From: Anaerolineae bacterium
Lineage (GTDB): Bacteria; Chloroflexota; Anaerolineae; UBA3071
Direction of reading: 5' to 3'
DNA length: 64,000 bases
Assembly (NCBI GenBank): GCA_029907105.1
Contig: JARYMM010000018.1
Coordinates: 1-64,000, forward strand
Shown here: positions 1,598 through 61,139 of the stretch, one piece after another
How the letters are laid out: every line of letters starts with the position of its first letter
How positions within the stretch are numbered: the stretch's first letter is position 1
The notes under the pieces: generated by a model
What the model was told of the DNA's origin: nothing
What the model saw: only the letters and a program-made list of their open reading frames with translations
Database searches by the model: none
Program-made: the position numbers and the translations under genes

Positions 1598-2791
1598 ATG
1601 GCCCGGCAGCAGGTCCGCCTGGCCCTGCTGCGTGCACTCGGCCTGGTACTGCATCCCTTCTCCCCCTCCTTCCCTTCTCCCCCTTTTCCCTCTTCCCTGC
1701 TCATCATCCGTCCCGACCACCTGGGCGACCTGCTCTTCCTGACCCCCGCCCTGCGCCGGCTGCGGGAAGTTCTGCCAGAGGCCTATATCGCCCTGCTGGT
1801 GGGGCCTTGGGGGCGGGGGGTGGCGGAACGCAGCCCCTACGTGGATGAGGTCATCACCTGTCCCTTCCCCGGCTTCACGCGCCAGCCCAAGGGTTCGCTG
1901 TTCGCCCCTTACCGGCTGTTGCTGCAGGAGGCGCGCCGGCTGCGGCAACAGCGCTTCGACCTGGCCCTGGTCATGCGCTTCGACCACTGGTGGGGTGCAT
2001 TCCTGGCCGCCGTGGCTGGCATCCCTCATCGCTTCGGCTATGCTATCCCCGAGGTGCGGCCGTTTCTCACCCAGGCGTTACCATACGTCGCCGGGCAACA
2101 CGAAGTGCAGCAGAATTTGCGTTTCACGTTTCACGTTTCACGTTTCACGTCGCAGGTCGCAGGGGAGGAGGCGCTGGCTGAGGAAGCTGACTGGAAGGCG
2201 CATCCGCTGGAGTTTGCGCTGACGAGGGAAGAAGAAGCCCGGGCTGAGGAGTGGCTGCTGGCCCACGGCGCGGCCGCCGGCCGCCCCTTGGTGGCCATCC
2301 ATCCCGGCGCCGGGGCTCCGGTGAAGCTGTGGCCGGCGGAGAATTGGGCCGCCGTGGCCGATGTGCTCACAGCGCGGCGCGGGGCGCAGATCGTGCTCAG
2401 CGGCTCGGCAGGCGAGCTGGACCTGGTCTGGGCTGTGGCCGCCCACATGCGAGGAGATCCGCTCATCGCCGCCGGGGAGACGACGCTGGGGCAGTTGGCG
2501 GCGCTCTATCAGCGCTGCCGGCTGGTGCTCGGTTCCGACTGCGGGCCGCTGCACCTGGCCGTGGCCGTGGGTACGCCCACCGTCCATCTCTATGGGCCGG
2601 TGGATGCCCGCGCCTTCGGCCCCTGGGGCAACCCGTTCTGCCACCGCGTGCTCCTCAGCGACTGGCCCTGCCTGCCCTGCAATCGCCTGGACTTCGCCGC
2701 CGAAGAACTGGAGGCCCACCCCTGCGTGCGCGACATCACTGTCGAGCAGGTATTGGCTGAGGCCGAGGCATTGCTGGCCGGCGCGTGGTAG
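1598..2791 (+). CDS. Glycosyltransferase family 9 (heptosyltransferase-like)
   Basis: A GT-B fold glycosyltransferase of the ADP-heptose:LPS heptosyltransferase family, likely acting on a cell-envelope glycan or glycolipid. The N-terminal core begins IIRPDHLGDLLFLTPAL. The C-terminal nucleotide-sugar region has HPGAGAPVKLWP and LGSDCGPLHLAVAVGTPTV. ATG 1598 is the best start because upstream in-frame sequence has no family similarity. Two low-complexity stretches interrupt the protein: a polypyrimidine tract (about 1654-1701) coding for Pro/Ser/Phe before the core, and a 42-bp heptamer array (2121-2162). The natural acceptor cannot be read from the sequence. Confidence 0.85.
   Translation: MARQQVRLALLRALGLVLHPFSPSFPSPPFPSSLLIIRPDHLGDLLFLTPALRRLREVLPEAYIALLVGPWGRGVAERSPYVDEVITCPFPGFTRQPKGSLFAPYRLLLQEARRLRQQRFDLALVMRFDHWWGAFLAAVAGIPHRFGYAIPEVRPFLTQALPYVAGQHEVQQNLRFTFHVSRFTSQVAGEEALAEEADWKAHPLEFALTREEEARAEEWLLAHGAAAGRPLVAIHPGAGAPVKLWPAENWAAVADVLTARRGAQIVLSGSAGELDLVWAVAAHMRGDPLIAAGETTLGQLAALYQRCRLVLGSDCGPLHLAVAVGTPTVHLYGPVDARAFGPWGNPFCHRVLLSDWPCLPCNRLDFAAEELEAHPCVRDITVEQVLAEAEALLAGAW
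2121..2162 (+). repeat. Heptamer array inside the GT9 gene
   Basis: Four perfect copies of GTTTCAC (2121-2148) are followed by two of GTCGCAG (2149-2162). Six 7-bp units make 42 bp, exactly 14 codons, so the reading frame is kept. The array lies between the two Rossmann-like halves of the glycosyltransferase. Confidence 0.9.
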
Positions 2792-2847: not shown

Positions 2848-4560
2848 ATGCTCAAGAAATTGATAACCCTGGCCATCATCCCCCTTATCCTTTTGTCCTT
2901 CGCCCACTTCGGGACGATGCCCATCATCCGGCATAGCTGGGATCAGGTGGTGAAATACCGGAGCCCTTACACGGTTTCGCTCCCGCCGGGGGAGGCGGGA
3001 ACGGCTCTCGTGGAACAGGTGGTGCTTGTGGTTGTGGACGGCCTGCGGGAGGATGTCTCCCGGGAGATGCCTGTCCTCAATGAACTGCGGGGCCGGGGGG
3101 CGAGCCGCACCCTGCGCATCGGCCAACCATCCCTCTCCCATCCCACCTGGACGACCATCGGCACCGGCTCCTGGCAGGAACAGAGTGGGGTGACCACCAA
3201 CTGGTACGAGGGAGCCATCCGGGTGGACAGCCTCTTCGCCCGCGCCGAAGCAGCAGGGCTCTCCACGGCCATCATCGGCTCGCCAGGGTGGGGCGAGCTC
3301 TACGCCGGGCACTACGGCTACGGCCGGTTCTTTGGGTGGAGAGGCGAGGCCACCGACGACGACATCCTGGCCGAGGCCCTGCGGGTGCTGCAGGAGCGCA
3401 GGCCCAACCTGCTCCTGGTGCACTTCGAGGGCACCGATGAATACGGCCACACCTACGGCGGGGCCAGCACCGAGTACCGCCGTGTGGCCATGGCCATGGA
3501 CGACCGCATCGCCCAGCTCGCTCAGGCTGTGGACCTTGGCTCTGTCGTCCTTGGCGTCACCGCCGACCACGGCATGATTGACCCTGGCGGCCACGGCGGC
3601 TGGGAGCCGGTAGTGCTGAACGTGCCCTTCGTCCTGGCGGGCAGGTCCATTGTGCCCGGCACCTACCCTCCAGCCCGGCAGGCCGATATCGCCCCCACCC
3701 TGGCCGTGCTCCTGGGCACTGCCATCCCCGCCCACAGCCAGGGCCAGCCGCTCTGGGACCTGTTGGAGCTGCCCGAGCAGGTGCGGGCCAGGCGGGCCGT
3801 GGACGTGGGCACACAACTGGCCACCTTCTACGCCGCCTATGCCCGGCAACTGGGAGCCAGGCCCTTCGATCAAAGCCAACTGGACGCGGCCGGGGAGGCG
3901 CTGAGCCGGGGGGACTATGCCACCGCCTACCGTAGCGCCAGGGAGTTCGCCGACGGCATCCAGCATCAGGCCGCCGCGGCCCGCGAGGGCCGGCTATGGC
4001 GGGAGCGGCTGGGACGCACCCCCTTGACCCTCCTGCTGCTGCTGCCCTTCGCCGCCTGGCTCTACCTGGCCTGGCGAAAGCGGTGGAACCTCCGGTGGGC
4101 CCTGTGCGGCGCGGCCATCTACTTTCTGCTCTACAACGCCCTCTTTTTCGGCCGGGGATACACCTACTCGCTGAGCGCCTTCAACTCCGAGGAGCAGATC
4201 GAGGCCTTCTTCACCCAGCGAGGGGTGGATGCCCTCCTCGCCCTGCTCGTGGCCGGACTGCTGGTGGGCATCCTGGCCCGGCGGGAAGGGAAGTTCGACA
4301 CCGCCCTGGCCGCGGGAAACGCCATGTTCTTCGTGGCCCTGGGACTGGGCCTTCAGGTGCTCCTGTTCTACTGGCTTTGGGATGTGAATTTCTCCTGGTA
4401 CATTCCCAACCTGCTTTGGGGCTTCAAGTACTACCTGGATATGCTTCAGACCACGGCCTTCTATCCCAAGGTCTTTCTGCCCGTGGCCGCCATCCTGCCC
4501 TTCCTGGCCCTGGGGACGCGCTGGATAGCGCGTCGCGTCGCCCCTCGGCAGCACAGTTGA
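2848..4560 (+). CDS. Membrane-anchored alkaline phosphatase family protein (phosphodiesterase/nucleotide pyrophosphatase type)
   Basis: A 570-residue metal-dependent phosphoesterase of the type I phosphodiesterase/alkaline phosphatase superfamily. An N-terminal hydrophobic segment exports or anchors it. Metal-site motifs appear in order: VVVDGLRED, the nucleophile region QPSLSHPTWTTIGTG, HFEGTDEYGH and TADHGMIDPGGHGG. The C-terminal 180 residues carry about four to five hydrophobic segments, so the catalytic domain should face outside and be tethered to the membrane. ATG 2848 follows a good ribosome-binding site (AAAGGAG). The substrate is unknown. Confidence 0.85.
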   Translation: MLKKLITLAIIPLILLSFAHFGTMPIIRHSWDQVVKYRSPYTVSLPPGEAGTALVEQVVLVVVDGLREDVSREMPVLNELRGRGASRTLRIGQPSLSHPTWTTIGTGSWQEQSGVTTNWYEGAIRVDSLFARAEAAGLSTAIIGSPGWGELYAGHYGYGRFFGWRGEATDDDILAEALRVLQERRPNLLLVHFEGTDEYGHTYGGASTEYRRVAMAMDDRIAQLAQAVDLGSVVLGVTADHGMIDPGGHGGWEPVVLNVPFVLAGRSIVPGTYPPARQADIAPTLAVLLGTAIPAHSQGQPLWDLLELPEQVRARRAVDVGTQLATFYAAYARQLGARPFDQSQLDAAGEALSRGDYATAYRSAREFADGIQHQAAAAREGRLWRERLGRTPLTLLLLLPFAAWLYLAWRKRWNLRWALCGAAIYFLLYNALFFGRGYTYSLSAFNSEEQIEAFFTQRGVDALLALLVAGLLVGILARREGKFDTALAAGNAMFFVALGLGLQVLLFYWLWDVNFSWYIPNLLWGFKYYLDMLQTTAFYPKVFLPVAAILPFLALGTRWIARRVAPRQHS

Positions 4561-8627: not shown

Positions 8628-9574
8628 CCAATCTGGTGCTGGCCGAGCGCGGGAGCTACACGGTCATCAACTGCCTGTTCGCCAACCGTACTACCTACGG
8701 CTACCTGGCGGAGTTCGGCAGCTACGATGAGCCCAGCCTCCCCGCCGATGTCACCGTGCACAACACCATCTTCTTCAACGATAACCCGGCCAACGGCGGC
8801 ACCACACTGTTCGTGGCCAGCGGCGTGAACATGACCGCCGACTACAACCTCTACTACAACCCTTACCGCACCGACGACGTGATCTGCTACGGACCGACCG
8901 ATCGCTGCTACAGCGCTCAGGAGATCAACGACGGCACCTGGTTTGCCCAGACCGGCAACGGCGAGCACAGCGCTTATGGCGATCCCCTCTTCGTGAATGC
9001 TCCTGGCAAGGACTTCCATCTGACGGCGGCGAGCCCGGCAGTGGATGCGGGCACGGGGCAGGGAGCCCCGACGGTGGACCTGGACGGCAACCCCCGGCCC
9101 CAGGGTGCGGGATACGACATCGGCCCTTACGAGTATGTCACCGCCGGCCCTACACCCACGCCTACATCCGCCCCGACGCGCACGCCCACGCCGACACCGA
9201 CGCGCACGCCGACCCGCACGCCCACGCCGACGCCCACGGCGACTCCCACGCCTACGCCGACGCGTACGCCAACGTCCACCCGCACGCCTTCGCCAACCCC
9301 CTCCTGCACGCCGACGGCCACCAGCACGCCTTCGCCAACCCCCTCCCGCACGCCGACGGCCACTCGCACGCCTTCGCCAACCCCCTCCTGCACGCCAACG
9401 CCTACGCCGAGCCGCACGCCAACGGCCACCAGGACGGCGACGTCCACTCGCACTCCTTCGCCAACCCCCTCCCGCACGCCGACGCCTGCGCCGACCCGCA
9501 CGCCGACGGCCACCGGGACGGCGACGACAGCAATCTGGCCATGCTATCTGCCGCTGCTCTTGCGCTTCTTCTGA
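8615..9574 (+). pseudogene. Frameshifted continuation of the glycoside hydrolase/beta-helix gene
   Basis: Beta-helix sequence resumes directly in the next frame ([13 protein letters not shown], then [11 protein letters not shown]), so one base appears to be missing near 8614; an extra G would restore VDSGLTN. The segment carries the last beta-helix rungs, an end-cap ([26 protein letters not shown]), a Thr/Pro linker of about 125 residues, and the C-terminus [11 protein letters not shown]. It has no start of its own. It is either a real inactivating frameshift or a sequencing/assembly error. Confidence 0.8.
9148..9525 (+). repeat. Thr/Pro-linker coding repeats
   Basis: Imperfect direct repeats code for T-P-T-P and T-P-S-P-T-P-S units. 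A 42-bp unit (starting near 9286, 9328 and 9370, with a diverged copy near 9450) is the clearest. This is a typical flexible linker between an exported domain and a C-terminal anchoring tail. Slippage in such repeats would change linker length. Confidence 0.8.
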
Positions 9575-18625: not shown

Positions 18626-18676
18626 GGTTCCAGGTTTCAGGTTTCAGGTTAACCTTGAAACCCGAAACCTGAAACG
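18626..18676. repeat. Inverted heptamer array between alpha and beta subunit genes
   Basis: GGTTCCA, GGTTTCA, GGTTTCA (18626-18646) then GGTTAAC at the centre and a mirrored half of GAAAC-containing units to 18676. The halves form a long imperfect hairpin of about 25 bp per arm. It sits inside an operon, so it may act on mRNA rather than end transcription. Confidence 0.85.
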
Positions 18677-40676: not shown

Positions 40677-43600
40677 TTACTCCTCCCGACGGCGGCGGCG
40701 CAGCCGCAGTTGGGCGTAACCGGCCAGGCCCAGCAGGCCGCTCCCCAGCATGAGCATGGTGCCCGGCTCGGGGATCTCGCCCGGAGCGAAGTAAACCACC
40801 TGCGTCGTCGTCTCGTTCGAGCCGAAGGGACCTGTCTCGCCCGTGAAGTCCACCACCGCCACGTTGCGGAGGGTCACCGGCAGGTCCGCTGTGGGAATGC
40901 CGATCACCCGCCCGGTGATGGTGATGGTCACCACTTCGCGTGGGTACAGGTCACCGATGCTGGCCGTGACCGTCCGTGTGCCGCTGTTCCAGACCACCGT
41001 GCCCTTGGTAGTGCTCAGCCGGATGTACTCCAGGTACTCGCTGATCCTGTCGGTCACCACCACGTTGTGCGCCGGCCCAGGGCCGTTGTTGCTCACAGTG
41101 ATGGTGAAGGTCAGGTCTTCGTAGCGGTGCACGTACTCCTTGTCCACGGCCTTGGCGATGACGACGTCCGGGTAAGCGTAGCCGAAGTCAGCGTTCAGGT
41201 AGTCCGTGTCTGGCGGCAGGACGATGGGGCCGTATGGATCCTTGCTGCCCTGGGAGAGGTTCAGCCCCTCCGGCAGCGTCGTATCGTCCACGTCCACACA
41301 GTAGGTGCCGATGGGCAGCAGGTCGAAGAGGTACAGGCCGTTGGCATCGGTGACGTCGCTGGCCAGCCACATGTCATCAGCGGTGCCGCAGAGACCATCC
41401 GCACCGGCGCCCAGCAGGTTCACTTTCACGCCGGGGATGCCATGCTCGCCCGCATCCTGCACGCCGTCCCTGTCCGCATCGAGCCAGACAAGGTCGCCGA
41501 TGGAGGAGGGCAGGTAGTAGCCGAAGTCGGCGGTCAGGTAGTCTTCCCACGGGTCGAGGGCGATGGGGCCATGCGGTTCGGCGATGCCCGGGCTCAGGTA
41601 GACATTCGCCGGCAGGGTAGCCTCCACCACGTCCACACAGTAGACGCCCACCGGCAGCGGGTCGAACAGATAGAGGCCGTTGGCGTCGGTGACGTCGCTG
41701 GCCAGCCAGACGTCATCGGCGGTGCCGCAGAGGCCATCGGCGCCGGCGGCCAGCAGATTCAGCGTCACCCCGGCGATGCCCGGCTCGCCCGCATCCTGCA
41801 CGGCGTCGCCGTCCAGGTCCAGCCAGACAAGGTCGCCGATGGAGCCGCCCGGATAGTAGCCGAAGTCGGCATCCAGGTATTGCTCAGCGGGGTCCAGTTC
41901 CGGATTGAGGGCGATGGGGCCATGCGGATCGGCCAGGCCAGGGCTGAGGTAAACATCGGCTGGCAGGGTGGTATCGTCCACGTCCACGCAGTAGCTGCCG
42001 GCCAGCAAGAGGTCGAAGAGGTACAGGCCGTTGGCATCGGTGGTGCGGGAGTCCAGCCAGGCGTCGTCAGCGGTGCCGCAGAGGCCATCGGCGCCGGCGG
42101 CGTACAGGTTGAGCACCACGCCGGGGATGCCCGCTTCGCCGGGGTCTTGCACCGCATCGCCGTTCAGGTCCAGCCAGACGAAATCGCCGATCTCGCTGGT
42201 GGGGATCACGGGGGTGATTTCCTGATCCTCGGCACAGTCGGTGCCCGGATCGTCGTCACAGAGGACTGCCGTGTTGCTGATCTCCGCCGGGTCCACCAGA
42301 TCGCGGTCCACGATAACCGTGAAGCTCACGCTGCCCTGGGCCGGCGGGCAGAAGTTGCCCAGGTTCCAGCACACCTCGCCGGTCGCCGGGTTGTACACGC
42401 CGCCGCCCGTGGCGCTGTCGAACGTCGTGCCGTCGGGCACCACATCGCAGATGGTCACGTTGTTCGCCGGCTCGTTGCCCGTGATCTGCCAGAGGATGGT
42501 GTAGACCAACGGGTCGTTCTTCATCACCGGGCTGGGATCGCTGACCTTGTCAACGGCCAGCTCGTGGTCAGCATGTACCGTGCTGGTGACCGAGTCCTCA
42601 TCGTAGGCACCGCTATCCTCAGTGATGGCGGCGGTGTTGTCAATGAGTGTGCCGTCGGGCAGGCATGTATCCACCAGTACCTCGAAGGTGGCTGTGCCGT
42701 TGGCAGGGGGTGCGACCTGACCCAGGTTCCAGGTCACCACACCGCCGCTTTCGGAGCAGTCAGCGGCCGGCTCGCAACTCACAAAAGTGGTCAGCGCCGG
42801 TATCGCATCGGTGACGGTGGTGTTCTCCGCCCAGCAGTTGCCCGCCACCGCCCAGTCCAGGGTGTAGGCGAGCGAAGCGCCTGCCTCCACCGGTTCGGGA
42901 GCTGCGGTCTTCTCGATGTCCACGGTGACGTAGGCGGTGACAATGTCCGTGTCCTCGGCGGCGTTGTTGCTGGGATCGTCACCTGGGGTAGAGGTGGAGA
43001 TGGTCACGGCATTGGTGATCGGGGTATCGCCACAGGGGAAGAGGGGATCGAGTGCCACCGTCACCTGCACCGTGCCGCTGGCGCCAGCAGCCACAGTCCC
43101 CAGGTCGAAGGTCACCACGCCGCCCGCCTCGCTGCAGGTGCCCACAGGGGTGGAGCAGCTCACAAAGCTGGTGCGGTCGGGGATGGTGTCCACGATCACT
43201 ACGTCGTTGGCAAACCGATCGCCGATGTTGGCATAGGCGATGTTGTAGGTGAGGACATCGCCAGGCACAGCGTTGGTCACGCCGTCGTCCTTACTGACCG
43301 TGACATCCGGGGTGGCCAGGGGGACTTCCAGCACGTTGCCCACCCAGGTGCCGCTTTCGCCGTCAGCGTTGGGGTCAGTCCAGAACCCTACCGACTCCAG
43401 TTGGAAAGCGACCCATTCTGCACCGGCAGGCACCGGCACATCCAGCGTGAACACAGCCCACTCAGCGCCCACATAGCCCCCGCTCAGGCCCGTGGCCGGC
43501 GGGAAGAAGGTCGGGGTGCAGAGGAGATTCTCCCAGGGATCATCGGCGACCAACTGACCGCCGTTGATGCCCACGGAGGCAGGCCATGTATGTTGCAGGA

Positions 43601-60780: not shown

Positions 60781-61062
60781 ATGTCACCCGAGGCGAGGAA
60801 CCAGAAGATTGATCCGGCACTGACCGCCCTGTGTCAGGCCGACCCGCAGGCCACCGTCGCCGCCATCGTGCGCACGGAGGGGGCTGCGGAAGCGCACCGC
60901 GCCGAAGTTGAGGGCAGTGGCCTCACCGTGCGGCGCGTGTTTCGCCTGCGGCCCGGCCTGGCCGTGGAGGGCCAGGTGGCCGCCGTGATCGCCCTGGCCG
61001 ACCGCCCATGGGTGCGATCGGTCTCGCTGGATCGGGAAGTACACGTGATGCGTGGTGCGTGA
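60781..61062 (+). CDS. Small I9-propeptide-like protein next to a subtilase
   Basis: A 93-residue protein with the beta-alpha-beta-beta-alpha pattern of subtilisin propeptide/inhibitor I9 folds (ATVAAIVRTEGAAEAHRAEVEG, then AVIALADRPWVRSVSLDREV). The same pattern occurs at the N-terminus of the downstream subtilase (VPVIVKYRQ, LSRLEEDPDVIAVWPDLPV). It may be a stand-alone inhibitor or chaperone of that protease. The stop lies in a heptamer array. Confidence 0.6.
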   Translation: MSPEARNQKIDPALTALCQADPQATVAAIVRTEGAAEAHRAEVEGSGLTVRRVFRLRPGLAVEGQVAAVIALADRPWVRSVSLDREVHVMRGA

Positions 61063-61139
61063 TGCGTGATCCGTGATGCGTGATCTAGCTACTCTGCTGA
61101 TTTCTCACGCCTCGCTCGTCACGTATCACGCCTCACACC
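61044..61139. repeat. Inverted heptamer array before the subtilase gene
   Basis: First half CGTGATG, CGTGGTG, CGTGATG, CGTGATC, CGTGATG, CGTGATC (61044-61085). Second half TCACGCC, TCGCTCG, TCACGTA, TCACGCC, TCACACC (61105-61139), inverted relative to the first. Confidence 0.92.

Follow-up and report, generated by a model that had tools for sequence, protein, structure and literature searches.

A glycosyltransferase gene of the GT9 family in an Anaerolineae bacterium carries, between the two halves of its product, a translated array of seven-base units. We interpret this array as a tolerated genomic repeat that belongs to a genome-wide heptamer population, is kept by selection for the reading frame and rewrites the interdomain linker (probability roughly three in four). 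As judged from alignments and a phylogenetic tree, the same linker has been hit by heptamer arrays in at least four lineages, with units that differ nearly every time; non-protein repeat DNA has entered the GT9 hinge again and again with the frame kept intact. The features of the GT9 locus are listed in Table 1, with positions given in the window, i.e. the whole 64,000-nt stretch of DNA that was analyzed.

Table 1. The GT9 gene in the window, its linker and its repeats
Feature	Position	Strand	Basis
GT9 (heptosyltransferase-like) glycosyltransferase gene, host of the array	1598..2791	+	PF01075, TIGR02195, structural model
C/T-rich repeat with periods of 9 and 17, encoding HPFSPSFPSPPFPSS, directly before the first β-strand of GT9	1655..1697	+	repeat scan
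Interdomain linker (residues ~167-202), hypervariable, recurrent array site in homologues	2096..2203	+	alignment of 59-60 homologues and model
Four perfect GTTTCAC heptamers	2121-2148	+	direct reading and repeat scan
Two perfect GTCGCAG heptamers in the same register as the GTTTCAC units	2149-2162	+	direct reading

Host gene and array

The host protein matches Glyco_transf_9 (PF01075) with E=2e-36 and 125.9 bits against a cut-off of 22; the start of the gene was placed by codon score using a home-made gene caller, and upstream in-frame starts are also possible. Its score for TIGR02195 (109.6 bits, E 1.6e-31) falls under the NCBIfam cut-off of 134.6, which leaves the protein outside the WaaF equivalog (heptosyltransferase II), and the donor sugar is therefore left unassigned. 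The structural model, predicted from a shallow alignment with a mean pLDDT of 77, has 3tov (GT9, E 1e-21) and 1psw (WaaF, E 3e-19) as its best Foldseek matches, and the host is accordingly modeled as a GT-B fold like that of WaaF and WaaC.

A preceding reading made from the sequence alone had described six heptamers in the coding region, located between the two GT-B halves in a loop. The sequence and coordinates of the six units are exactly as it gave them, and their placement between the halves is upheld by the homologue alignment, the linker analysis and the predicted GT-B model. The loop is not: in the low-depth model the linker consists of a helix (residues 167-188) followed by coil, and the array, which begins mid-gene at residue 174 of 397, forms the second half of this interdomain helix. 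The array is in frame with the GT9 gene and translated as RFTFHVSRFTSQVA, the peptide RFTFHVS RFTSQVA in the open frame of the gene, and it contains no stop in any of the three coding-strand frames. Two tandem units (GTTTCACGTTTCAC) match the window six times with up to two mismatches, compared to 0.10 expected matches, and the three exact matches are all at the GT9 array, which is beyond chance expectation.

Viral contigs gave 0 matches when searched for the array; thus, there is no sign of phage carriage in them. An inverted arm of the GT9 array was not found within 150 nt. A hairpin or REP-like element at this locus was considered and rejected, since strong inverted partners within 150 nt accompany only about 8 of 50 arrays, and none is present here.

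Net gain and reading frame

The array had been expected to add 14 residues, visible as a 14-residue gap in an alignment with the closest GT9 homologues. This alignment did not yield a clean empty site. Linkers of repeat-free homologues comprise 13-24 residues (modes 15 and 19), whereas the linker of the window protein has 28, that of L007, the nearest relative, 23, and that of L010, the array-free homologue closest by tree path, 19. The net gain over L010 is thus ~9 residues, and L007 gives no empty site because it has a different array of its own. Moreover, the conserved ‘xLV’ helix end after QNL is absent from the window protein. Subtracting the 14 array residues leaves a linker of 14, which is under nearly all homologues, and together with the missing ‘xLV’ this suggests replacement: most likely, about five native residues were lost on arrival of the array, which took the place of the end of the native helix.

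Changes in unit number at the GT9 locus leave the gene open with 3, 6 or 9 units and truncate it with 4, 5, 7 or 8, and a change by one or two units shortens the protein to 189-212 of its 397 residues. The proposed rule that the frame survives only if the number of heptamers is divisible by three is therefore correct for unit-number change at this locus, but it does not extend to in-gene arrays generally. The spans of other in-gene arrays are not multiples of 21 nt (one epimerase insert has 11 residues), and partial units and flanking changes also preserve the frame in them.

Linker arrays in GT9 homologues

Using an alignment of 59-60 GT9 homologues of the class, we found that the array residues of the window protein are encoded by none of 59 homologues, be it by unrelated codons or otherwise. 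This identifies the array as intruding DNA, as the sequence-only reading had it, and not as an ancient protein motif. Other heptamers occupy the linker of several homologues: a GTATCAG-type array in L007 (same family, 72-78% identical), GGATCAG/GGACCAG in L009, GTTGCAA-type in L008, GACGAA-type in L066, and related heptamer forms in L059 and L053. The linker of L065 contains approximately twelve units, GGTGATC followed by its inverted form, all in frame, and thus represents a coding hairpin in an enzyme gene.

Per nucleotide, arrays are 22 times as dense in the linker as in the remaining GT9 sequence (7 arrays in 4.7 kb vs 4 in 59.9 kb, p=2.7e-6), with a score threshold for linker arrays chosen after data inspection and L053 added by eye. 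Three of the four non-linker arrays are also at junctions, two of them N-terminal before the first strand and one directly before the first strand of the C-domain. A tree that omits the linker calls for five changes of array state, or for four when only strongly supported branches are counted.

The linker units tested recur elsewhere in their own genomes. GTATCAG of L007 is present in G001 and absent from G000, GGRNCAG of L009 was found in G058, and GACGAAN of L066 has 147 matches in G240. The correspondence between unit and genome is not exclusive, as G012 has GGRNCAG arrays with none in the linker, and GACGAAN also occurs in G000. The linkers of array-bearing sister pairs are unequal in length and of low identity; array-free pairs at similar distance have mostly kept both linker length and sequence. 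The arrays of the window and L007 could be descendants of one ancestral array with fast turnover.

Several additional repeats were observed in these and related proteins. The L066 GT9 gene has two in-frame arrays, near reverse complements of each other, at positions corresponding to residues 175-185 and 212-220 of the window protein, and inverted arms are present in the arrays of some relatives (L065, L066). Another dispersed repeat, CCTGAGCYTGCCGAAGGG, is translated within the GT9 linker of L031, L011 and L008, and a repeated PVVSEVEPS peptide in the GT4 protein of L086 (~3240-3330) is apparently similar in kind.

Arrays inside other genes

Gene calls were made by a simple home-made codon-score caller that gave a coding fraction of 0.86. 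Of the 36 arrays from unbiased sampling, 12 are well inside genes and the other 24 lie between genes or at their edges. As this in-gene share is under the 86% expected from coding density, in-gene arrays are depleted by selection, and they are still common; the avoidance of genes is much less strict than in Xanthomonas, with its 93% intergenic heptamers. Across all stretches sampled, 21 in-gene arrays are translated in frame, and such in-frame insertion into unrelated ORFs resembles that of Rickettsia palindromic elements (RPE). The earlier suggestion that such arrays can enter and persist in genes is thus confirmed by their in-frame occurrence in unrelated proteins.

Among the hosts are a GT4 glycosyltransferase, whose 11-unit array directly precedes the C-terminal GT-B domain, a fragment of a UDP-GlcNAc 2-epimerase at the end of a contig, an SDR epimerase (two arrays), a MiaB/RimO-type radical SAM enzyme, whose array separates the UPF0004 domain from the radical-SAM domain, and a penicillin-binding protein, where one array is directly before the BiPBP_C domain and another is within the transpeptidase domain. 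A 28-nt array in the L077 glycosyltransferase brings nearly no net insertion. The cyclic peptide RFTFHVS and its close variants are found in five unrelated proteins (a GT9, an SDR epimerase, a GT4, a DUF2079 protein and a membrane protein of polysaccharide synthesis), and therefore their similarity is at the DNA level. For annotation, peptides such as RFTFHVS and SAIRNPQ that are common to unrelated proteins indicate DNA repeats and not homology. In-gene arrays occur in the stop-free orientation in 10 cases vs 0, a bias that is partly circular because an intact ORF was required and that we did not count as independent proof. Array length modulo three was unusable as a test, as the array ends are fuzzy.

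Period-7 arrays in the genome and the class

A 442-kb sample of the source genome contains 36 period-7 arrays, while each of the other periods from 4 to 15 gave 0-7 arrays and block-shuffled DNA gave 0. This clear excess of tandem 7-base units over other periods is of the kind that characterizes LSSR/STRR. Three tandem GTTTCAC units with at most one mismatch have 17 matches on 11 contigs of the 3.78-Mb genome, a 133-contig draft, some of these matches overlapping within one array; the reversed control pattern had no match in this genome. The 36 arrays fall into 19 unit classes and form 39 same-unit pairs, whereas random genomic 7-mers would give 1.1 such pairs and reached no more than 7 in any of 1000 draws. 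The units are drawn from a small, shared, genome-specific set.

Among 298 genomes of the class, mostly draft assemblies, 46 contain the triple GTTTCAC pattern, with a patchy distribution and up to 160 matches per genome. Some genomes looked array-free in small stretches, which for G012 proved wrong for at least one unit. The reversed control matched 13 and 18 times in genomes G171 and G247, which suggests that their genus has a further heptamer family, CACTTTG. Enrichment of CA/TG dinucleotides was dropped as a property of the units because it is weak (82% vs 71%).

Other repeats in the window

L031 and L011 have CTCCATC-type heptamer arrays at the place of the HPFSPSFPSPPFPSS repeat of the window, which suggests that this N-terminal site is a second tolerated repeat site. 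Elsewhere in the window, heptamer arrays in intergenic or gene-edge positions form inverted pairs in which long hairpins are possible, with folding energies of -54.5 kcal/mol over 131 nt (array at 61044-61136) and -31.4 kcal/mol over 81 nt (18626-18675). A 351-bp tandem repeat at 41270-42191 (2.7 copies, 79% matches) probably corresponds to repeated protein domains. A long CCCACGCC/CCGACG-type repeat with periods of 12, 18, 30 and 84 bases is located at 9155-9526.

Origin and maintenance of the array

Under the preferred reading, the array would have been born in the interdomain linker of the GT9 gene or copied into it from the resident heptamer pool, and would then be altered by slippage. Selection would retain stop-free, frame-preserving arrays at tolerant junctions; in the GT9 linker, array sequence turns over between sister species. 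The array probably persists because it is stop-free in three frames, preserves the frame and is sited where the fold tolerates residues. We infer spread by copying plus slippage, the copying being suggested by the shared units, and near-neutrality of the array in the protein. More tentatively, it is possible that in some Anaerolineae an unrecognised process copies genome-specific heptamer units into new sites, including gene interiors, and that stop-free, frame-keeping arrays at domain junctions form a standing source of linkers rewritten between sisters.

Birth of the array in place, by replication slippage that amplified a native 7-mer of the linker and involved no copying from elsewhere, is unlikely. 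Slippage is the mechanism proposed for bacterial heptamer excess (PMC4692102, PMC4679880), and the L077 array with its minimal net insertion fits such an origin; however, unit sharing across unrelated loci is too frequent for it (39 pairs), and the tested linker units also occur elsewhere in the respective genomes. Still less probable is a phase-variable contingency locus, in which heptamer slippage would turn the glycosyltransferase on and off. The unit length is not divisible by three, unit-number change in this glycosyltransferase gene shifts the frame with the truncations described above, and repeat-driven switching of HMW1A is known in Haemophilus, as outlined in PMC8262952. On the other hand, only four units are perfect, the array is mid-gene, every linker array was seen in the open phase, and like arrays are present in genes where switching is implausible (MiaB/RimO-type radical SAM, UDP-GlcNAc epimerase, penicillin-binding protein).

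The absence of the array residues from all 59 homologues and the mismatch between the linkers of array-bearing sisters make it very improbable that the array is an ancient, functional GT9 peptide with a repetitive encoding by chance, even though the model puts it in a continuous interdomain helix. An artefact in this metagenome-assembled genome has a negligible probability: repeats are prone to mis-assembly and the draft is fragmented, but the 42 nt are shorter than the read length, the reading frame continues undisturbed on either side of them, and arrays of this sort recur in numerous independent assemblies.

According to an earlier survey, as cited in PMC4679880, units of a length divisible by three are likeliest in coding regions. 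Seven-base repeats are expected to break genes; here they are routinely translated. This makes it possible to test how repeat DNA turns into novel protein sequence, at what pace a linker changes, and whether copying or slippage is behind the spread of heptamers.

Comparison with known repeat systems

Heptanucleotide long simple-sequence repeats (LSSRs) are described for Xanthomonas (GGGAATC), Nostoc (GGGGA(C/T)T) and Calothrix (PMC4692102), and share with the arrays reported here the tandem 7-base unit, genome-wide excess, imperfect copies and variation between relatives. Those LSSRs are mostly intergenic (93% for the Xanthomonas (Xac) heptamers, as quoted in PMC4692102), G-rich and based on one dominant unit, whereas about one third of the arrays sampled here are inside genes and each genome has several non-G-quadruplex units. 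The TAACTGA repeats of marine Beggiatoaceae are likewise direct heptamer repeats with a patchy distribution across lineages; they consist of one unit, are mostly upstream of start codons and have a proposed regulatory role (PMC4679880), in contrast to the many, often translated units found here.

A parallel for translated repeat DNA is provided by the RPE (Ogata et al. 2000, as presented in the review PMC10969869), which likewise sit in frame within numerous unrelated genes, are translated and are tolerated by the fold. RPE are palindromic elements of ~150 bp with a conserved sequence, while the GT9 array is tandem, 42-44 nt long and has no inverted arm, and the units differ between genomes; the GT9 array is thus not a conserved palindromic element of ~100-150 bp. 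With the Haemophilus HMW1A-type loci, as far as PMC8262952 outlines them, the GT9 locus shares a slippage-prone 7-base tract and a gene likely acting on surface glycans, but it differs from these phase-variable loci in having few units in a mid-gene position and in that similar arrays are also present in housekeeping genes. A literature search found nothing on heptamers in Chloroflexi, and, within its limited extent, no precedent for translated heptamers that repeatedly rewrite one enzyme linker. Heptamer excess and the slippage idea (PMC4692102, PMC4679880), as well as in-frame repeat DNA (PMC10969869), are already known, and what is new is the recurrence at one linker.
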